From assembly GCF_900143005.1 (NCBI RefSeq), contig NZ_FRCS01000032.1, forward strand, positions 1 to 55,722: DNA of 55,722 nucleotides, read 5' to 3'. The notes beneath the pieces were generated by a model. That model was not told the origin of the DNA, did not search any database, and worked only from the letters and a program-made list of their open reading frames with translations. Every line of letters begins with the position of its first letter. Position 1 is the stretch's first letter. Source of the stretch: Cryptosporangium aurantiacum (GTDB lineage: Bacteria > Actinomycetota > Actinomycetes > Mycobacteriales > Cryptosporangiaceae). A program made the position numbers and the translations under genes. This document shows positions 156-9,857 of this stretch, piece after piece.

Positions 156-3100
156 TCACGTGGTCAGCTGGTTCAGCAGGATCTCGGTCCGCTGGGTCAA
201 CACGGGGAAGCCGAGCGTGCGGTGCGCGGACAGGGCCTTTCCCGCGTGGCTGCGTGCCTCGTCGACCCGGCCGAGGGCGGCCAGTACCACCGCGATGTGG
301 TGGTGGGTCGATCCCCAGCAGGCGCCGGTGGTGCCGAGCGTTGCCAACCAGTCCGCGTACGGCATCAGGTCGGCCAGCACCGCCTCCGGGTCGGGGGTGC
401 CCAGCTGCGCGCCGACCAGCGCCCATTGAACCAGGACGAAGTCGGTCGCCCAGTTGTTCCGGATCGTGACACCCCAGCGGCCGACGAGCCGCCGCGCGTA
501 CCCCTCGTCGCCGGACTCCACGGCGGCGAGGATCGTCGCCGGCCGCAGCATCTCGAACGCCGGTTTCGCGGCGTACTCCAGGAGTTGTTCGAACGCGTCG
601 CCCGGCCGTCCCTGGGCCCGTCGGCTGGTGAACAGTTGCACGAGGTGCGGCAGTTCGCCGCCCCAGAGGCTGGTGCGGTGATGGAAGTCGAGCGCTTCTG
701 CCGAGAGCCGCTCGCCTTCCTCGTAGCGTCCGGACAGCATCGTGCGGGACGCCTCGGCGAACCGGACGATCCCGTCCAACTCAGGCCGGTTGACCTCGCC
801 GACGAGTTCCCGGGCGCGGGACAGGTCGGCGTCGAAACCCGGGAGGTCACCGGCCCGCATCAGCATCCCCATCCGGTGGATGCGGGCCACCAGCTCGTGC
901 GGCCGGGGCACGCCGGGCAGCGCGATCGCCTCGTCGGTGGCTCGACGGCGTTCGGTTTCGCGCTCCGGCACCCACGCGGCGATGTGGTAGTTGTTCAGCG
1001 TCTGGGCGAGCAGCGCGGCGTCGCCCAGCGGGCGGGCCAGCTCGACCGCGCGGGCCGCGTACGCCTCGCCCTCGGCCCGCGCCTGCCCGTAGTACAGCTC
1101 GACGCCGAGCGTCCCGAGCATCGCTGCCCGCTGTGCGTCGGTGAGGCCCTCCGCGTCGACCCGGTCGCGCAGAATCTGCACCATCCGGTCATCGACGACG
1201 CCGTACGGGCGCCAGTTCCACGCGGTGACGCCGCCGAACACGGTGACGGCCTCGATCACCGCGGCCTCGTCACCGTCGGCGAGCGCGAGTTGCACGGCCT
1301 CGTCCAGCGCCTCCCGGGCGCCCTCGGTGTCGCTGCAGGCGCGGCGGGCGCGGCCCAGCTCGATCAGCAGGTCTCGGCGGCGCATCGGCGTCGCCACGTC
1401 GAGCGCGGCGAGCGCGAGCTCCCAGAATTCCACGGCTTCCGGATGCGCCCGCTGGCCCGCGGCCTGCCTGGCGGCCTTGACCGCGTACTCCACGGCCTTC
1501 TCGCTGCTGCCGACGCGTGCCGCGAGCCCGAAGTGGTGGGCGAGTTCGGCCGAGCGGTCGGACGCGGTGGGTTGTGCCTCCAGCGCCTCGCCGACGCGTC
1601 GGTGCAGGCGGGCCCGCTGCAGCCGGCTCAACCCGACGTAGAGCGCGTCCCGGACCAGCGCGTGCGAGAACCGGTAGTCCCAGCCGTCCGGTAGCTCCTC
1701 GACCAGTCCGCTCGCGACGGCGGGCTCCAGCAGCATCAGGACGCGCTCGGTGTCGAGCTCCATGACGCTCTCCAGGACGTCCACCTCGATGTCACGGCCG
1801 CCGACCGCGGCCGCGCGCAGCAGCGCCTGGGTGTCCTGCGGCAGCCGGGCGACCCGCCGGTCGATGACCTCCCGGACGCCTGCCGGAACTGCGGACGCTG
1901 CGGCCTCGGTGGAGCCGCTGCCGGCCAGTGCGGCGGGTTGCTCGCTGTTCAAGAGGCGGAGCAATTCACCGAGATAGAACGGGTTGCCGCCGGTGCGGTC
2001 GTGCAGCACGCGGACCAGCCGGGGTGCCGGCTCGACCTGGTGCGCGTTCAGGAACTCGGCGACGTCCTCGGCGGTGAACGGGTGGACGTTGACCCGCTCG
2101 ACGCCGGGCTGTCTGGCGACGTCCCCGAGCGTGTGGTGCAGGGCCGCGGCGTGCTCGCCGGGCTCCTGCCGGAGCGTCACGAGGATCAGCGTCGGATACC
2201 GGTGCAGTTCCCCGGCGACGAACGCGAGCAGCTCCAGCGAGGACGCGTCGGCCCAGTGCAGGTCCTCGATGACGATCAGCAGCGGCGAGTCGCCGGCCAG
2301 CAGCGCGCTCGCGACGCCGGCGTGCAGCGCGAAGCGTGCGGCGTCCGGGTCGGGGTCGGCGGCGCTGTCCGCGCGGCCGGTGAGCAGACGCAACGCGTCC
2401 TCGGCCGCGGAGCCGGGCCGGGTGGCGCAGGCCTCGAGGACCTGGAGCCACGGCCAGAACGCGGGGGACGCGCTGCTCTCCACGCAGCGACCCCAGGCGA
2501 TCGGGATACCCAGCCCGGTGGCGGTGTCGGTGGCGGCTTGGGCGAGCCGGGTCTTGCCGATCCCGGCCTCTCCGGTGAGCAGCACGACGCCGCCCCGGCC
2601 GCGGGGTAGCTCCTGCAGCCGGGTGGTGATCCAGCCGAGTTGGAAGTCGCGGGCGATCAGCGGCAGCGCGCCCGCCCCGGGCAGGGCCGGGGCCTGGTAG
2701 TGCGGTGGCTCGGTGACCGGCGTGCGGCTCGGGTGCGGCTGCGCCGGTGCCATCGGAAGCCCGGCCGCCCCCGGCCCGCTCCCGCCAGTCGGCGCACCGG
2801 CGGTCGGCCCGCTGGTGGTCGGCCCGCTGGTGGTCGGCCCGCTGGTGGTCGGCCCGCTGGTGGTCGGGGTGACGGTGGTCGGGGTGACGGTCGCCGGGGT
2901 GACGGTTGGCGGGGTGACGGCTGGGCGGGGCGGGCCTGCCAGTGGGGACGGCGGCGCGGGGTACGACGTCGCGGCCGGCGACGGGTCGGTGGGCGGCGCG
3001 GCAGGTGCCAGGTACAGGAACGGTGACTGCTCGGTGACGACGGCCGTGCCCGGCGGGGTGTCCGGCAGGTCCAGCGACGTGTCCTGACGCAGGACCGCGG

Positions 3101-3881
3101 CCTCCATGTCGCGCAGCTCGGGCCCGGGATCGAGCCCCAGCTCGTCGGCGAGGATCGTGCGGACCCGCTGGAGCGCGCCGAGCGCGTCGGCCTGCCGTCC
3201 GCTGCGGTACAGGCCGAGGGCGAGCAGCGCCCAGAACCGCTCGCGGAACCGGTGGCGCTCGACGATCTGTTCCAGCTTGAGCACGGCTTCGGTGTGGCGT
3301 CCGAGGCCGAGCCAAGCCTCGATCTGCAGCTCGTGCGCGACCAGGTGCAGGTCGTGCATGCGGGTGATCGTCGGCTGGGCGAACGGCAGGTCGGAGAAGT
3401 CCTGCAGCGCCGAACCACGCCAGTGCGTCGTCGAGGCCCGGAAGTGCGCGTCGGCGGTGAGCGGGTCGCCGGCGGCGAGCGCCCGCCGACCTGCGTCGAC
3501 GTCCTGTGCGAAGCGAACGAGGTCCACCTGGGCCTGGTCGATGTCGAGCAGGTAGCCGGGTTCGCGGGTGAGCAGCGTGCGGGGCGGGGTGCGGGGCGCG
3601 CGGTCGGGCTCCAGCGCTCGACGCAGCTGGGAGATGTACGCCTGCAGCGTGCCGGTTGCGCTGGACGGTGGTTCGTCGGCCCAGAGCTGGTCGATGAGCC
3701 GGTCGAGCGGAAGTACCTGACCCGGCGTGATCAGCAGCATCGCGAGGATCGCGCGTTCCTTGCGCGGCCCGATGTCGACCTGGCGTCCCTGCCCGTCGAT
3801 CACGAGCAGCGGACCGAGTAACCGGAAGTCGAGGGTGCCGGGGGGTGCGGCGTTCGCCGGGGGTTGGTTCTCGGCCGGCAT
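156..3881 (-). CDS. BTAD/AAA/TPR transcriptional regulator (AfsR/SARP-like, large)
   Basis: 1241 aa. Residues about 17-110 form an OmpR-type winged helix (GPRKERAILAMLL) and about 110-260 the bacterial transcriptional activation (BTAD) domain, as in SARP/AfsR proteins. A Pro/Thr/Gly linker (about 270-400), partly made of five-residue repeats, leads to an ATPase with Walker A GEAGIGKTR near 440 and Walker B LLIVIEDLHWAD near 537. The last 400 residues are helical repeats of TPR type. Such proteins activate secondary-metabolism or stress genes in response to an unknown signal, with nucleotide binding as switch. It follows the GNAT gene by 10 nt with GGAGGGG before its ATG, so the two are co-transcribed. 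The shared upstream region carries SARP-type heptamers, suggesting autoregulation. Targets are inferred, not shown. Confidence 0.9.
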   Translation of the reverse strand: MPAENQPPANAAPPGTLDFRLLGPLLVIDGQGRQVDIGPRKERAILAMLLITPGQVLPLDRLIDQLWADEPPSSATGTLQAYISQLRRALEPDRAPRTPPRTLLTREPGYLLDIDQAQVDLVRFAQDVDAGRRALAAGDPLTADAHFRASTTHWRGSALQDFSDLPFAQPTITRMHDLHLVAHELQIEAWLGLGRHTEAVLKLEQIVERHRFRERFWALLALGLYRSGRQADALGALQRVRTILADELGLDPGPELRDMEAAVLRQDTSLDLPDTPPGTAVVTEQSPFLYLAPAAPPTDPSPAATSYPAPPSPLAGPPRPAVTPPTVTPATVTPTTVTPTTSGPTTSGPTTSGPTTSGPTAGAPTGGSGPGAAGLPMAPAQPHPSRTPVTEPPHYQAPALPGAGALPLIARDFQLGWITTRLQELPRGRGGVVLLTGEAGIGKTRLAQAATDTATGLGIPIAWGRCVESSASPAFWPWLQVLEACATRPGSAAEDALRLLTGRADSAADPDPDAARFALHAGVASALLAGDSPLLIVIEDLHWADASSLELLAFVAGELHRYPTLILVTLRQEPGEHAAALHHTLGDVARQPGVERVNVHPFTAEDVAEFLNAHQVEPAPRLVRVLHDRTGGNPFYLGELLRLLNSEQPAALAGSGSTEAAASAVPAGVREVIDRRVARLPQDTQALLRAAAVGGRDIEVDVLESVMELDTERVLMLLEPAVASGLVEELPDGWDYRFSHALVRDALYVGLSRLQRARLHRRVGEALEAQPTASDRSAELAHHFGLAARVGSSEKAVEYAVKAARQAAGQRAHPEAVEFWELALAALDVATPMRRRDLLIELGRARRACSDTEGAREALDEAVQLALADGDEAAVIEAVTVFGGVTAWNWRPYGVVDDRMVQILRDRVDAEGLTDAQRAAMLGTLGVELYYGQARAEGEAYAARAVELARPLGDAALLAQTLNNYHIAAWVPERETERRRATDEAIALPGVPRPHELVARIHRMGMLMRAGDLPGFDADLSRARELVGEVNRPELDGIVRFAEASRTMLSGRYEEGERLSAEALDFHHRTSLWGGELPHLVQLFTSRRAQGRPGDAFEQLLEYAAKPAFEMLRPATILAAVESGDEGYARRLVGRWGVTIRNNWATDFVLVQWALVGAQLGTPDPEAVLADLMPYADWLATLGTTGACWGSTHHHIAVVLAALGRVDEARSHAGKALSAHRTLGFPVLTQRTEILLNQLTT
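2796..2930. repeat. 15-bp minisatellite inside the regulator linker
   Basis: About nine consecutive 15-bp units. Three are exact copies of gctggtggtcggccc (2811-2855); the later units drift to the form gacggtggtcggggt. Because the unit is 15 bp, the reading frame is kept, and the protein shows repeated five-residue blocks of the kind PTTSG and TPTTV. The repeat sits in the flexible linker between the BTAD domain and the ATPase, so copy-number change would alter linker length only. Confidence 0.85.
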
Positions 3882-3891
3882 AGCCCCTCCG

Positions 3892-4371
3892 TCAGGTCTC
3901 CCGGGACCTCCACAGCACCGGGCGCCCCACCGAACGGTGAGAGTAACCGTCGTTCACCACGTCGGGATCCTCCGCGAAGCCGAGTCTCCGCAACATCTTC
4001 GTCAGCGCGTCGTCGGCGTTGGTGCAGAACTCCAGGATTTCGCCCCCGGCCTGCAGCGACCGTCGTACGTCGCTGAGCAGCCTGGTGGCCAGGCCGCGCC
4101 GGCGCCGGGACGGTTCGACCGCGAGCGCGACCATCCGGGCTCGTTCCGGGGTACTGCCGGGGACGACCAGCGCAGCGGCCAGCGCCTGGTGCGGGTCTTC
4201 GGCGGCGACGTCGACCAGTAGATACAGGCGGGCGTCCGTGACGTCGCCCAGCATCTCGGGAGCGCACCGCCGCAGCAGGTCGAGGGCAGGCCCCGGCGCC
4301 GTCGGTGGCGAGGTCCGGAAGAGGACCATGTCCGCGGCTGCCACATCGTCGGAGGGCAAGGAGGCGGTCAC
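3892..4371 (-). CDS. GNAT-family N-acetyltransferase
   Basis: 159 aa from the GTG at 4371; an in-frame ATG at 4383 is possible. The acetyl-CoA pyrophosphate-binding motif is RRRRGLATRLL, preceded by the usual beta strand (ARMVALAVEPS). A C-terminal LGF segment fits the end of the GNAT fold. Acceptor substrate unknown. I prefer 4371 because a -10-like AATGCT ends 7 nt upstream, which would make the transcript leaderless, and the ATG at 4383 lies inside that -10. First gene of an operon with the BTAD regulator; divergent from the FAD oxidoreductase. It may modify a metabolite in the same regulon, which is inference. Confidence 0.8.
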   Translation of the reverse strand: MTASLPSDDVAAADMVLFRTSPPTAPGPALDLLRRCAPEMLGDVTDARLYLLVDVAAEDPHQALAAALVVPGSTPERARMVALAVEPSRRRRGLATRLLSDVRRSLQAGGEILEFCTNADDALTKMLRRLGFAEDPDVVNDGYSHRSVGRPVLWRSRET

Positions 4372-4378
4372 ACTGGAG

Positions 4379-4410
4379 AGCATTCCCAGGCACGCTTGGA
4401 CGCGACTTGG
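4379..4410 (-). promoter_or_regulatory. SARP-type promoter for the GNAT-regulator operon
   Basis: On the - strand, heptamers CCAAGTC (4404-4410) and CCAAGCG (4393-4399) are separated by 4 bp. Eight bp further downstream is AATGCT (4384-4379), and seven nt after that is the GTG start at 4371. SARP-family activators are known to bind direct heptamers of 11-bp period with the last one 8 bp from the -10. The fit is by eye. Confidence 0.55.
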
Positions 4411-4464
4411 ATCCGGCTAGGGAACGACTCGGTCCATTGCCGCGAACTCGGACCAATACCCCAC

Positions 4465-4540
4465 CCAAGTCAACGGTTTAAGCGGCCAAGCAGCGCTCCA
4501 AGTGAGGATCAAGTCGCCGCCAAGCGCCTTCCGCCACTGT
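4465..4540 (+). promoter_or_regulatory. SARP-type promoter for the FAD oxidoreductase gene
   Basis: Three direct heptamers at exact 11-bp period: CCAAGTG (4498-4504), TCAAGTC (4509-4515) and CCAAGCG (4520-4526). Then come 8 bp and a -10-like CACTGT (4535-4540). Two further copies, CCAAGTC at 4465 and CCAAGCA at 4486, lie upstream. The promoter-proximal heptamer CCAAGCG is identical to the proximal one on the opposite side. This places transcription start near 4547 and supports the ATG at 4589 as the gene start. Confidence 0.55.
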
Positions 4541-4588: not shown

Positions 4589-5983
4589 ATGATGACCATC
4601 GGCGCGACGGCGACCAGGGAAGCGGCCGGCAGCGTCGGCGCGGACCTGACCCGCCTGGTGCGCGGACAGGTGCTCTCGCCGGGTGACACCGGGTGGGAGG
4701 TGGCCCGGCGTCCGTGGAACCTTCAGGTGAAGCAGGAAGTCCGGGCGGTCGTCGTCGCCGAGGACGCGGAGGACGTCGCCGCCACCGTGCGGTACGCGAA
4801 CCAGTACGGGCTGTCGGTCGCCGCGCAGCCGGTCGGCCACGGCGCGACCACTGCCCTCCGCGACACGATCCTGCTCCGCACCGGCGCGCTGCGCGGCGTC
4901 GACGTCGACCCGGTGGCGCGGACGGCCCGGGTGGCCGCGGGCGCCGGTTGGGCGGACGTCCTCGGCCGGGCGGGTGCGCACGGGCTCACCGGTCTCGCGG
5001 GCAGCTCCACCGGCCCCAGCGTCGTCGGGTTCACGCTCGGCGGTGGGCTGTCGTGGTTCGGCCGCAAGTACGGCTTCACGGCCAACGCGGTGCGGTCCGC
5101 GGAGGTCGTGGACGCGAACGGCGACCGGTACCGGGTGGACGCCACCCGCGACCCGGAGCTGTTCTGGGCGCTCCGCGGTGGCGGTGGTGACTTCGCGCTC
5201 GTCACCGAGCTGGAGTTCGACCTCTTCCCGGCGCCGCTGCTCTACGGTGGCCGGCTGCTCTGGCCGGCCGAGCGCGCCGCCGAGGTGCTCGAGGCGTACC
5301 GGGAGACCGTGGCGATCGCGCCGGAGGAGCTGAGCCTCTGGTACACGCTGCTGCGCTTCCCGCCGATCCCGGAGCTGCCGGAGTTCCTGCGGGGCCGCGC
5401 GATGGTGGCGGTGGACGCGACCTACCTCGGTGGGCTGGCGAACGGCCGGGAGCTCCTCTCGCGGCTGCTCGCGGTGCCGGGGACGCTGCTCGACACGGTC
5501 GGCGCGCTGCAGGTCGCCGACCTCGGGTCGGTGGCCGCCGAGCCGGTCGACCCGGTGCCGGCGATGGAGTACGCGGCGCTGCTGCCCGAGCTCGACGACG
5601 ACGCGGCTGACACGCTGCTCGGCGTGGCGGGGCCGCACAGCGGTTCGCCGCTGAACACGGTGCAGCTACGGCACCTCGGCGGCGCGCTCGCGCGGCCGAC
5701 CATCGGCGGTGGTGCGGTGGGGCACCTCGAGGAGAAGTTCAGCCTGACCGGGATCGGCATGCCGATGGGGCCCGGCATGGCCGAGCAGATCGAGGCGCAC
5801 CAGGCGCTGATGGCGGACGCGTTCGCCCCGCACGCCAGCGGACGGATCTTCTTCACGTTCCTCGGCTCGGAGGAGAGCCCGGTCGCGGCGTTCCCGCCGG
5901 ATGTGCTCGCCCGGTTGCGGGACGTCAAGCGGCGGCGCGACCCGCACGGCGTCATCCGGAGCAATCACCCCGTGCTCCGATAA
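4589..5983 (+). CDS. FAD-binding PCMH-type oxidoreductase (BBE-like)
   Basis: 464 aa. The N-terminal FAD-binding PCMH domain contains QPVGHGA, whose His is where FAD is covalently attached in berberine-bridge-type oxidases. SSTGPSVVGFTLGGG is the second FAD-contact motif; the Cys found in bicovalent members is replaced by Ser, so single attachment is expected. FWALRGGGGDF is typical of the family, and the C-terminus ends in an HPVL segment where BBE domains end. Members oxidise sugars, alkaloids, aclacinomycin or similar secondary products, so substrate is open. GGGGGAAG precedes the ATG at 4589; the open frame continues upstream to 4502 but that part overlaps the putative promoter. Probably controlled by the divergent BTAD regulator. 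Confidence 0.88.
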   Translation: MMTIGATATREAAGSVGADLTRLVRGQVLSPGDTGWEVARRPWNLQVKQEVRAVVVAEDAEDVAATVRYANQYGLSVAAQPVGHGATTALRDTILLRTGALRGVDVDPVARTARVAAGAGWADVLGRAGAHGLTGLAGSSTGPSVVGFTLGGGLSWFGRKYGFTANAVRSAEVVDANGDRYRVDATRDPELFWALRGGGGDFALVTELEFDLFPAPLLYGGRLLWPAERAAEVLEAYRETVAIAPEELSLWYTLLRFPPIPELPEFLRGRAMVAVDATYLGGLANGRELLSRLLAVPGTLLDTVGALQVADLGSVAAEPVDPVPAMEYAALLPELDDDAADTLLGVAGPHSGSPLNTVQLRHLGGALARPTIGGGAVGHLEEKFSLTGIGMPMGPGMAEQIEAHQALMADAFAPHASGRIFFTFLGSEESPVAAFPPDVLARLRDVKRRRDPHGVIRSNHPVLR

Positions 5984-6221: not shown

Positions 6222-6599
6222 GTGACCAGCATCGACGCCCATCGCGCCGCATCCACCGGTCGTTCGTTCCGCCACCGGGCCGGGGCTCGCATCGGTGCCC
6301 TGATCGCGGCAGCCGCTCTCGGGCTCGCCGTGCTCGCCGGGTGCGGCGGAGACAACTCGCAGACGGACTGCAACCTCAACTCGTGCACGATCACCTTCGA
6401 CCGTGGGGTGGACGCCAGCGTCTCGGTGCTCGGCATCGACGCGAAGCTCATCTCGGTCCAGGACAGCCAGGCGACGCTGGAGGTCGCCGGGCAGCAGGTG
6501 ACCGTTCCGGTCGGCCAGGATGCCCAGTCCGAGGGCTTCAACATCTCGGTCGAGGAGATCACCGCCGACGAAGTGATCGTCAAGATCTCGGCCAACTGA
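6222..6599 (+). CDS. Small secreted lipoprotein, function unknown
   Basis: 125 aa. A basic N-region (two Arg-rich stretches) is followed by a hydrophobic helix ending in lipobox VLAGC, so the mature protein starts at Cys and is membrane-anchored outside the cell. The mature part, about 80 aa, has two further Cys (DCNLNSC), which could form a disulfide, and alternating beta-strand-like segments. It has no recognisable catalytic motif. It stands alone between terminators on both sides. I do not recognise a named family. Confidence 0.75.
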   Translation: MTSIDAHRAASTGRSFRHRAGARIGALIAAAALGLAVLAGCGGDNSQTDCNLNSCTITFDRGVDASVSVLGIDAKLISVQDSQATLEVAGQQVTVPVGQDAQSEGFNISVEEITADEVIVKISAN

Positions 6600-6828: not shown

Positions 6829-6979
6829 CCGCTCACCGCAGGGAGCGACCGCAGCGCACCGTCGCGTCCGCGTGCCTCCTCGACCGCGCCGGCCATCCGT
6901 TCGCCCGGCCCGGACACGCTGCCCCCGGCCCCGCACCGCCGAGCCCCGGCCCAGACCCGCCGACCGAGGGATTCAGACG
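6829..6979 (+). promoter_or_regulatory. 5' leader between leader peptide and cysC
   Basis: 151 nt of C-rich untranslated sequence, ending with GAGGG (6966-6970) nine nt before the cysC ATG. Only short complementary stretches are apparent (for example cgctc near 6830 with gagcg near 6844). No strong terminator stem was found, so rho-dependent or translational control would fit better than an intrinsic attenuator. This is inferred from position. Confidence 0.4.
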
Positions 6980-7573
6980 ATGCCCCCAGCGTCCACTCCT
7001 GGCACCGACCATGCCCCCGCCGCTCTCCCCTCGAGCGCGCCCGGCGGCGCGACGATCTGGCTGACCGGTCTGCCCAGCGCGGGCAAGACCACGGTCGCGC
7101 TCGCCGCGGCCGAGCTGCTGCGTGCGGACGGCCGCGCGGTCGAGGTGCTCGACGGGGACGAGATCCGCGCATTCCTCTCGGCTGACCTGGGATTTTCCCG
7201 GGAGGACCGGGGCAAGCAGGTCGCTCGGGTGGGCTGGATCGCCCGGCTGCTCGCCCGCAACGGCGTCCTCGCGTTCGCGCCGCTGGTCTCCCCGTACGCG
7301 GCGGACCGCGACGCGCTCAAGGCCGGGTCGAAGGCTGAAGGACTCGCGTTCCTAGAGGTGTACGCCGCCGCCCCGGTCGAGGTCTGCGCCCACCGGGACG
7401 TGAAGGGCCTGTACGCCGGGCAGCGCACCGGCGCGGTCTCCGGGCTGACCGGCGTGGACGCACCGTACGAGATCCCCACCGCCCCCGACCTGGTGCTGCG
7501 CACGCACGAGGAGTCGGTCGCGGCCAGCGCGTCCCGGCTGGTCGGGTTGCTCGCCGAGCGGGGCCTGGCGTGA
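6980..7573 (+). CDS. cysC: Adenylylsulfate (APS) kinase
   Basis: 197 aa. Phosphorylates adenosine 5'-phosphosulfate to PAPS with ATP in the cytosol. P-loop GLPSAGKTT (family usually GLSGSGKST), DGDEIR and FSREDR motifs for APS/ATP binding, and the lid-type segment DVKGLYAG are all present. The ATG at 6980 is chosen because GAGGG precedes it by 9 nt and the upstream continuation is Pro/Arg-rich non-coding-like sequence. First enzyme gene of the operon. Its stop overlaps the GTG of cysD. PAPS then feeds the sulfotransferase encoded three genes downstream. Confidence 0.93.
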   Translation: MPPASTPGTDHAPAALPSSAPGGATIWLTGLPSAGKTTVALAAAELLRADGRAVEVLDGDEIRAFLSADLGFSREDRGKQVARVGWIARLLARNGVLAFAPLVSPYAADRDALKAGSKAEGLAFLEVYAAAPVEVCAHRDVKGLYAGQRTGAVSGLTGVDAPYEIPTAPDLVLRTHEESVAASASRLVGLLAERGLA

Positions 7574-8499
7574 GCCGGGTCGCCGGGCTGATCCCCGGTC
7601 ACTCCGCTCCCGGCGCCCTCGACCTCCTGGAGGCCGAGGCCATCCACGTGCTGCGCGAGGCCGCCGGGCAGTTCGACCGGCCCGCGTTGCTGTTCAGCGG
7701 TGGCAAGGACTCCGCGGTGCTGCTGCACGTGGCCACCCGCGCGTTCGGTGGCGCGCCGCTGCCGTTCCCGTTGCTCCACGTCGACACCGGCCACAACTTC
7801 GCCGAGGTCATCGACTTCCGTGACCGGCGGACCGCCGAGACCGGCACCGACCTGGTCGTGGCCCACGTCGAGGAGACGATCGCCGCCGGCCGGGTTTCCG
7901 ACGTTGCCCAGGGCCAGTCCCGCAACGCACTGCAGAGCCGGACGCTGCTCGACGCGATCGAGGCGCACAAGTTCGACGCGCTGATCGGTGGCGCCCGCCG
8001 GGACGAGGAGAAGGCGCGAGCCAAGGAGCGGGTGTTCTCGCTCCGGGACGCGTTCGGCGGCTGGGATCCGCACCGGCAGCGCCCCGAGCTCTGGCGTCTC
8101 TACAACGGCGCCCACCAGCCGGGGGAGAACGTCCGGATCTTCCCGCTCTCGAACTGGACCGAGCTCGACGTCTGGCGCTACATCGCGCGGGAGAACATCG
8201 AGCTCCCGCCGCTCTACTACGCCCACGAACGGGACGTCGTCGAGCGCGACGGCATGTTGCTCGCGATCACCGAGTGGTCCTCGGACGCCGATCGCGCAGC
8301 CGCGGTCCGCAAGAAAGTCCGCTACCGCACGGTCGGCGACGCGATCAGCACCGGCGCGGTCGAGAGCGACGCCACCGACGCGGAGGCTGTGCTGACCGAG
8401 GTGACGCTGGCCGAGCAGTCCGAGCGCGGCGCGACCCGCGCCGACGACCGGACCAGCGACGCCGCGATGGAGGACCGGAAGCGGGAGGGCTACTTCTGA
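7570..8499 (+). CDS. cysD: Sulfate adenylyltransferase subunit 2
   Basis: 309 aa, usual length. The PP-loop motif FSGGKDSAVLLH (near residue 43) binds ATP. DTGHNFAEVIDFRD and GGARRDEEKAR are conserved CysD segments, and the C-terminus ends in EDRKREGYF, the family's typical end. With CysN it makes APS from sulfate and ATP. GTG start overlapping the cysC stop (GTGA), and its TGA overlaps the cysN ATG, so the three are translationally coupled. Confidence 0.95.
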   Translation: MSRVAGLIPGHSAPGALDLLEAEAIHVLREAAGQFDRPALLFSGGKDSAVLLHVATRAFGGAPLPFPLLHVDTGHNFAEVIDFRDRRTAETGTDLVVAHVEETIAAGRVSDVAQGQSRNALQSRTLLDAIEAHKFDALIGGARRDEEKARAKERVFSLRDAFGGWDPHRQRPELWRLYNGAHQPGENVRIFPLSNWTELDVWRYIARENIELPPLYYAHERDVVERDGMLLAITEWSSDADRAAAVRKKVRYRTVGDAISTGAVESDATDAEAVLTEVTLAEQSERGATRADDRTSDAAMEDRKREGYF

Positions 8500-9857
8500 T
8501 GACACTTCTCGAGTCCCCGAAGCGGGCGGCGGGCGCGACCGGCTTGATCCGGGTCGCCACCGCGGGTTCGGTCGACGACGGCAAGAGCACGCTGGTCGGC
8601 CGGCTGCTCTACGACGGCAAGGCGGTGCTGGCCGACACGCTGCAGGCGGTCTCCTCGGCCAGCCGGGCCCGCGGCGCAGAGCTCGACCTGTCGCTGCTGG
8701 TCGACGGGCTGCGCAGCGAGCGGGAGCAGGGCATCACGATCGACGTCGCCCACCGCTACCTCTCCACCGAGGCCAGGGACGTCGTCCTGGTCGACTGTCC
8801 CGGCCACGTCGAGTACACCCGCAACACCGTGACCGGCATGTCGTCGGCGGACGTGGCACTGTTGCTCGTCGACGTCCGCAACGGGCTGGTCGAGCAGACC
8901 CGGCGGCACGCCGCGGTCGCCGCGCTGCTCCGGGTGCCGCACCTGATCCTGGCGGTCAACAAGATCGACCTGGTCGACTACGACGAGGACGCGTTCGCGC
9001 AGGTCGTGGCCGACGCCGAGGCGTACGCGAAGGAGGTCGGCATCGCGGAGGTCACCGCGGTGCCGGTGAGCGCGAAGGCCGGCGACAACGTCACGACGAG
9101 GTCCGAGCACACGCCCTGGTACACCGGCCCGACGCTGCTCGAGCTGCTGGCCTCGGTGGAGGTGCCGGTCCGCGCGAACGCGCCGCTGCGGCTGCCGGTG
9201 CAGTGGGTCGCCCGCGGAGACGGCCCCCGCCGTTACACCGGCACGGTGGCGTCCGGGATCGCCCGCCCCGGTGACGAGGTGCTGGTGCAGCCGGCCGGCC
9301 GCCGCACCCGGATCGTCGCGGTCGAGGACGCCGACGGTTCGCTCGACGCCGCCGGTGAGGGTGCCGCGGTCGCGGTGACCCTGGCCGACGACCTGCACGT
9401 GGGCCGCGGTGAGCTGATCGTCGCGGCGGACGCACCGGCCGAGGTCCTGCGGGAGTTCGTCGCCGACCTGGCGGTGGTCGGGGAACGACCGGTCGTCGCC
9501 GGTGACCGCGTGCTCGTGCGGCACACCGGCAAGCTCGTCCGCGGCCTGGTCCGCGAGGTCACCGACACCGTCGACATCGACACCGGCCGGCGACGCCCGG
9601 CCGACCGCCTGGAGACCAACGACATCGGCCGGGCGACGATCGCCGTCGCCGAGCCGCTCGCCGTCGACGCGTACGGCCACGACCGGACGACCGGTGCCGC
9701 GCTGCTGCTCGCCGAGCGGACGGGCGACGCGATCGCCGCCGTACTGGTGCGCCGCCTCGAAGAGCGCCCCTTGGAAGAGCGCCCCCTCGAAGAGGGCCCC
9801 CCCGAACAGCGGCGCCCCCTCGAACAGGGTCCCCTCGATCAGGGAGAGAACCGTTGA
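8499..9857 (+). CDS. cysN: Sulfate adenylyltransferase subunit 1 (GTPase)
   Basis: 452 aa. GTPase that drives the CysD reaction. G1 GSVDDGKST, G3 DCPGHVEYTRN and G4 NKIDL are intact, followed by two beta-barrel domains. It is not fused to an APS kinase domain, matching the separate cysC. The last 35 residues are an odd repetitive tail (LEERPLEERPLEEGPPEQ and so on) encoded by a minisatellite and not expected in CysN. The ATG at 8499 overlaps the cysD TGA by one base; the longer open frame upstream is cysD antisense-phase noise. Confidence 0.94.
   Translation: MTLLESPKRAAGATGLIRVATAGSVDDGKSTLVGRLLYDGKAVLADTLQAVSSASRARGAELDLSLLVDGLRSEREQGITIDVAHRYLSTEARDVVLVDCPGHVEYTRNTVTGMSSADVALLLVDVRNGLVEQTRRHAAVAALLRVPHLILAVNKIDLVDYDEDAFAQVVADAEAYAKEVGIAEVTAVPVSAKAGDNVTTRSEHTPWYTGPTLLELLASVEVPVRANAPLRLPVQWVARGDGPRRYTGTVASGIARPGDEVLVQPAGRRTRIVAVEDADGSLDAAGEGAAVAVTLADDLHVGRGELIVAADAPAEVLREFVADLAVVGERPVVAGDRVLVRHTGKLVRGLVREVTDTVDIDTGRRRPADRLETNDIGRATIAVAEPLAVDAYGHDRTTGAALLLAERTGDAIAAVLVRRLEERPLEERPLEEGPPEQRRPLEQGPLDQGENR
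9755..9847. repeat. Minisatellite at the 3' end of cysN
   Basis: Six consecutive units, five of 15 bp and one of 18 bp, of the type cctcgaagagcgccc. They encode the LEERP/LEQGP tail of CysN. The last unit degenerates to cctcgatcagggaga, and its gggagag is also the ribosome-binding site of the TTG-started transporter gene that follows. Confidence 0.85.

Follow-up and report, generated by a model that had tools for sequence, protein, structure and literature searches.

Short direct repeats lie on both strands between a large regulatory gene with its upstream companion and a divergent FAD oxidoreductase gene of Cryptosporangium aurantiacum, and they raise the question of which protein reads them and which of the flanking genes it controls. 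The repeats form part of a stretch of 55,722 nucleotides (contig NZ_FRCS01000032.1; henceforth referred to as the window), and an initial annotation, made from the letters of the window, had taken them for a bidirectional SARP-type operator. What is known of SARPs comes mostly from Streptomyces, where they activate antibiotic clusters (PMC10972967, sections cited). Here we report that the site is very probably a bidirectional SARP operator-promoter, from which the large SARP encoded beside it would activate both the FAD gene and its own operon, thereby closing a positive feedback loop.

Genes of the locus and the repeat arrays between them

The left operon, on the - strand, begins with a gene for a GNAT-family acetyltransferase (3892..4371, 159 aa from GTG 4371); whether read from 4383 or from 4371 to 3892, this ORF gives modest GNAT matches, three of four above the Pfam cut-offs. 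Starting 10 bp after the GNAT stop, the next gene (156..3881, - strand) encodes the regulator, a protein of 1241 aa with Trans_reg_C, BTAD and AAA_16 ATPase domains. Its SARP domains score 45.2 bits for PF00486 (cut-off 26.2) and 132.7 bits for PF03704 (cut-off 22.1), and beside AAA_16 it has no HTH family other than Trans_reg_C at E<=0.001. Residues 528-833 match TOMM_kin_cyc, a kinase/cyclase fusion model, below its curated cut-off, and on this match rests any kinship with guanylate cyclases, which, with the lack of a C-terminal LuxR HTH, marks the SARP-LALs of the PimR class. The N-terminal part is nearest to the NCBIfam AfsR equivalog, at 150.9 bits against a cut-off of 1430, too low for an AfsR orthologue, and the best PDB match of the SARP part is EmbR (2fez, E 5.3e-50), where AfsR also aligns. 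The divergent gene on the + strand (4589..5983) encodes an FAD_binding_4 oxidoreductase of 464 aa, whose nearest NCBIfam models, BagG/FevA2 and BagK/FevA1, are both matched below cut-off; identity as a BagG/FevA2 oxygenase was rejected at 337.4 bits against a cut-off of 850. It is followed by a small ORF with no Pfam match (6222..6599, + strand) that occupies the same place in all four genus members and that we read as a putative lipoprotein gene. Farther on, ORFs at 6872-9857 of the window read as cysC, cysD and cysN (sulfate activation). Relatives of CysC and CysD stand at the equivalent place in sister species G002 and G003, and in G001 a CysD relative is inverted and lies farther off, with no CysC relative found in the stretch.

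The right array (4498..4526, + strand, CCAAGTG-AGGA-TCAAGTC-GCCG-CCAAGCG) points toward the FAD gene and consists of three heptamers whose starts are 11 bp apart (CCAAGTG 4498-4504, TCAAGTC 4509-4515 and CCAAGCG 4520-4526); 8 bp past the last one lies the -10-like hexamer CACTGT (4535..4540, + strand). The left array (4393..4421, - strand, CCTAGCC-GGAT-CCAAGTC-GCGT-CCAAGCG) points toward the GNAT-regulator operon and likewise comprises three phased heptamers (CCTAGCC 4421-4415, CCAAGTC 4410-4404 and CCAAGCG 4399-4393), with the -10-like hexamer AATGCT (4384-4379) again 8 bp past the last. The two heptamers on the - strand and three on the + strand that had been described, their 11-bp period, CCAAGCG as the last word on both sides, the 8-bp gap and the hexamers AATGCT and CACTGT all read as claimed; the degenerate third left heptamer CCTAGCC, which is in phase, had been missed and is added here. 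A further + strand heptamer, CCAAGTC at 4465..4471, is in phase 33 bp upstream of 4498 and is weak; of the three sister species, G002 alone retains it in the alignment. It and an off-phase CCAAGCA at 4486-4492 had also escaped the earlier description. Of 29 positions, the left and right arrays have 20 in common, consistent with recognition of both by a single protein. SARP sites reportedly carry repeats at 11 or 22 bp, with 8 bp separating the 3' repeat from the -10 element (PMC10936776, sections cited); both features are found here, the second judged by the position of the -10-like hexamer.

Such pairs are rare in the surrounding DNA. The pattern YCAAG-N6-YCAAG, that is, pairs at 11 bp, has three matches in the 55.7-kb window, all at this intergenic site (100 window shuffles: mean 0.08, maximum 1), and the 71 YCAAG words of the window form no other 11- or 22-bp chain. 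In the 9.58-Mb genome CCAAG-N6-CCAAG occurs at three places, compared with 25 for the pattern read backwards. Neither of the other two was retained as a promoter candidate: in L001 the 8-bp position holds nothing like a -10 hexamer, and L002 appears to lie inside a coding frame.

Conservation in the genus and the gene starts

The genus comparison comprised the genome of the window and those of three sister species, in all four of which the order of regulator, GNAT gene, FAD gene and small ORF is the same. Both arrays, the hexamer positions and the 8-bp gaps stay in place in all four, while the flanking DNA diverges; the heptamer spacing, on whose conservation in related genomes the initial annotation had staked its reading, is thus kept. 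By alignment, 4/4 species share TCAAGTC and the CCAAG cores of the right array, together with its 8-bp gap and CACTGT. In the left array the middle heptamer CCAAGTC is invariant, the promoter-side heptamer begins with CCAAG in three of four species and is the degenerate CCTAACC in G002, and the first heptamer is in phase as CCTAG in every species (CCTAGCC, or CCTAGTG in G001). With a 51-bp profile, scores above 20 bits were confined to the two arrays of each genus genome (150 of 4,287-4,539 candidates scored in each) and scores above 40 bits to the eight training arrays among the candidates scored in the four genomes, as expected for a dedicated regulator. Next below the training arrays came G002:C1:5834722 (19.3 bits), which was rejected as it has no -10-like hexamer at 8 bp.

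The initial annotation held that the operator fixes both gene starts. It does point to starts, though not to those of the longest ORFs, ATG 4383 and GTG 4502. On the left, the hexamer overlaps the ATG (4383) of the longest GNAT ORF, an overlap missed earlier; since the hexamer reads AATGCT or, in two sister species, GATCCT, this ATG is absent in two of the four species. The hexamer form RAT(G/C)CT at 8 bp is itself conserved in the genus and is followed 7 nt further on by a GTG in 4/4 species (4369..4371, - strand, in the window), and the codons between the equivalent of GTG 4371 and the next conserved ATG (14, 19, 14 and 4 in the four species) are open in one frame in the translations. We therefore place the GNAT start at GTG 4371, which is more likely than ATG 4383. 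As this GTG coincides with the predicted transcript start, the GNAT mRNA is predicted to be leaderless. In S. avermitilis 22.2% of mRNAs have a 5' UTR of <9 nt and such mRNAs strongly prefer AUG (PMC8780764, sections cited), which somewhat disfavours a leaderless GTG start. On the right, GTG 4502 of the longest ORF lies upstream of the predicted promoter and a purine-rich stretch precedes ATG 4589/4592, which points to the latter as the probable start of the FAD gene.

Relatives in other families and the rival readings

Relatives of the SARP domain in other families are 45-59% identical to that of the window. Among 45 distinct non-own regulator matches, two were without a locus and 43 were scanned for YCAAG pairs; neighbour counts used 40 stretches with 42 regulators, the L112 stretch being left out. 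A divergent FAD homologue lies within 1.6 kb of 32 of the 42 regulators and within 300 bp of 25, and for the remaining 10 the stretch shows no FAD gene in divergent orientation, that of L148 being cut by a contig end. The FAD homologues of 23 of the 25 close pairs are 53-60% identical to that of the window and the other two 36% and 42%, and the seven homologues 0.85-1.02 kb away are 39-43% identical. Exact YCAAG pairs at 11 bp occur within 1.5 kb upstream of 9/43 regulators, compared with 0/43 for the reversed pattern, and none was found in 97 kb of downstream sequence. A tblastn search of the 40 stretches (E<=1e-6) revealed no GNAT relative, so that the GNAT gene may have been added in the window's genus.

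Spacings, matrix matches and hexamers were counted in the 25 pairs less than 300 bp apart, the other seven being left out; these 25 regions form 15 sequence clusters, with the 13 hexamer cases coming from six and the 19 matrix matches spread over 12, and are therefore not all independent. On the FAD strand of these regions, CAAR words are spaced at 11 bp 18 times (shuffle mean 0.7, with 0/200 shuffles reaching 18), at 22 bp 14 times and at 33 bp four times, and spacings of 9, 10, 12, 21 and 23 bp do not occur at all; off-phase spacings of 30 (three), 34 (two) and 45 bp (two) are also present. On the regulator strand the 11-bp spacing was counted 10 times. A -10-like hexamer (CAGTAT, CACCCT, CACCGT, GATCCT and similar) stands exactly 8 bp after 13 of 15 terminal phased words (background 0.0136 per position), a count that is descriptive because the hexamer rule ([CG]A, T at position 6) was picked after inspecting the hexamer rows. 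Both exceptions, in L157 and L160, have a further heptamer and GATCCT downstream. The independent test is a matrix whose training set consisted solely of the genus's own eight arrays, and which matches 19 of 25 FAD strands at p<=0.05 (1.25 expected) and 8 of 25 at p<=0.01, with p>0.05 in the other six; 13 of the 19 matches take in a -10-like hexamer at the 8-bp distance, and in the other six the best match is an upstream heptamer pair that lacks a -10 at this distance. Regulator strands gave 7/25 significant matches, one of them with a fitting hexamer. Together with the 11-bp phase, the 8-bp hexamer distance and the conservation in the genus, this recurrence supports the assignment as a SARP-type operator, and the FAD oxidoreductase, which had been named as the defined target, is strongly supported in that role.

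Phased arrays face the regulator in nine of the 25 pairs of other families, and eight of these nine have no -10-like hexamer at 8 bp, which favours a reading in which the right array alone is an activating SARP promoter and the left array is accessory or repressing, giving negative autoregulation or cooperative help to the FAD promoter. A precedent in the same direction is PimR, for which a primary and a secondary operator both serve one target, pimM (PMC5930380, sections cited). We consider this reading unlikely, though it is the most serious rival, as within the genus the left array is followed at 8 bp by the conserved RAT(G/C)CT and 7 nt further on by GTG in all four species, and in L157 and L160 GATCCT is found at the 8-bp position on the FAD side as well. 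Activation by the SARP of its own operon is thus likely, resting on the four genus members: the proposed autoregulation holds up within the genus and finds little echo elsewhere, so that feedback activation may be special to the genus, or the left array may have another role. In six of the relatives (L136, L137, L139, L167, L168 and L171) the two arrays stand back to back around an inverted core of the TTG(G/A)-CCAAG type, the regulator-facing one mostly without a -10-like hexamer at 8 bp.

The initial annotation had named the local BTAD-ATPase protein as the reader, and co-conservation of regulator and arrays argues for it. Taken as real SARP operators, the arrays could have as their reader a different one of the genome's 22 BTAD proteins and not the local regulator, but this is improbable. 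The sheer number of BTAD genes (the local regulator and 21 others) would favour such a reader, as would the recognition-helix segment, which is not exclusive and is shared in part by paralogues (SLQAY in L120, TLQSY in L122). Against this, no YCAAG pair at 11 bp was found in the 21 other BTAD loci with flanks of ~1.5 kb each, relatives of the local regulator are repeatedly paired with such arrays in other families, and 32/32 FAD-paired regulators carry the segment TLQ[AS]Y (in one case as SLQAY), which is altered in 6/10 unpaired ones. Chance or base composition, by which short spacer words would merely look periodic, hardly deserves credence: the CAAG words are indeed short, but the shuffle controls, the conservation in the genus and the strict 11/22/33 spacing with 8-bp placement of the -10 in other families all speak against it.

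The proposed switch, known systems and further candidate sites

We infer that the local SARP binds both arrays and that, in the bidirectional switch favoured here, its protomers (winged helix plus BTAD) would line up on one helix face, one per 11-bp repeat, and cover the -35 region of each promoter, where they would contact RNA polymerase and sigma and offset the poor promoter elements. From the right array the FAD oxidoreductase gene would be activated with a transcript start at ~4547, and this is the firmest of the proposed steps; from the left array the GNAT-regulator operon would be activated from ~4371 as a leaderless GTG mRNA, resulting in positive feedback. The AAA_16 ATPase and the long C-terminal part presumably gate the activator by a signal, perhaps one tied to the substrate of the oxidoreductase.

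SARP operators that follow such rules, and SARP-LALs with CAAG-ending heptamers, are already well known, and the present site adds a new and well-supported example to an established type of switch. A close parallel is AfsR at the afs box of afsS in Streptomyces coelicolor, where 11-bp direct repeats lie over the -35 region, the last of them 8 bp from a suboptimal -10 that is CACTGT, the same as the right hexamer (PMC10936776, sections cited). In structures, AfsR protomers sit adjacent on the 11-bp repeats that overlap the -35 element and make contact with both sigma region 4 and the polymerase, a geometry that the present site shares, and AfsR is, like the local regulator, a large SARP with an extra nucleotide-binding domain (PMC10936776). 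However, the afs box has two repeats and one promoter, whereas here there are three phased CAAG-core heptamers per side and two directions, and in the PDB search only the SARP part aligns well between AfsR and the local regulator. PimR, SanG and PolR are SARP-LALs, large SARPs with an ATPase half as here, and their operators consist of CGGCAAG heptamers with 4-bp spacers (PMC5930380, PMC3367932, sections cited); that heptamer is absent here, where the words are (C/T)CAAG plus two bases and only the CAAG core is common. Like the present arrays, the PimR site has three repeats, the optimum reported for PimR, and lies in an intergenic region, between pimR and pimM (PMC5930380), but according to the same sections its triplet stands upstream of the -35 and serves pimM only, whereas both arrays here lie 8 bp from a -10-like hexamer; the PimR target is a pathway regulator and the target proposed here an FAD oxidoreductase. 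EmbR of Mycobacterium tuberculosis, the best PDB match of the SARP part, has an FHA domain and not an ATPase (PMC10936776).

In the open-access literature searched, we found no description of the SARP-FAD oxidoreductase pairing or of these arrays. Gene order and operator sequence here link a clade of large SARPs, in many genomes, to a single oxidoreductase family. Its pairs offer a ready collection of natural variants from which the SARP DNA code could be read and in which one could ask whether the ATPase part responds to something connected with the oxidoreductase; sharp predictions of start sites follow as well, including that of the leaderless GNAT mRNA. More tentatively, and with doubt slightly outweighing confidence, we suggest that the locus belongs to a two-gene module that is widespread in actinomycetes and perhaps not yet described, made up of a large SARP with an ATPase sensor and a divergent FAD oxidoreductase that are connected through CAAR arrays at 11 bp. 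If so, the module would be a stand-alone inducible unit that senses a compound and oxidises it, rather than a regulator of an antibiotic cluster, and its protein-DNA code would be readable and would vary between lineages.

A scan of the genome, which had been proposed for finding the regulon, gave no further strong site in the own genome (150 candidates scored), and a looser pattern yields candidates with other heptamers. This pattern, CAAG-N7-CAAG-N10-CANNNT, has 15 places in the four genus genomes compared with three for the reversed control; four of the 15 are the right arrays, and 10 of the 11 others, with GCAAG as the second word, were not assigned to this regulator. At G002:C1:9097692-9097722 (L183), GCAAGAG-CTTT-CCAAGCG is followed after 8 bp by CACAGT before a likely ATG start, possibly marking a further target of this regulator in that sister species. 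The 400 bases ahead of the next-best FAD homologues of G000, G003 and G002 (L019-L021) yielded no phased CAAR pair. Two distant FAD homologues have arrays within ~115 bases before the start of the FAD match, namely CCAAGGG-GCCG-CCAAGCC, 8 bp and GATGCT in L014 (~40% identity) and CCAAGAC-CACG-CCAAGCA-TCCG-GCAAGTA, 8 bp and CATGGT in L024 (~37% identity); no SARP relative was found in the 1.5-kb flanks of either. Phased CCAAGCC words are also present in L031, in a repetitive stretch. At G000:C5:13634-15897 (L027, L120) a paralogous FAD oxidoreductase and BTAD regulator adjoin on the same strand, and locus L120 contains no YCAAG pair at 11 bp. A second SARP-like site, of the GCAAG type and matching the looser pattern, lies at G000:C2:63927-63957 (L176, base 1500); it precedes another BTAD gene (L129, match C2:63133-63561) by a few hundred bases and is perhaps the own operator of the L129 SARP. 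Finally, the near-identical arrays at G000:C14:119546-119576 and G001:C3:101876-101906, which start with CAAGGGTCGTGCAAGG and end with CACACT, are a candidate for a conserved site of another SARP.
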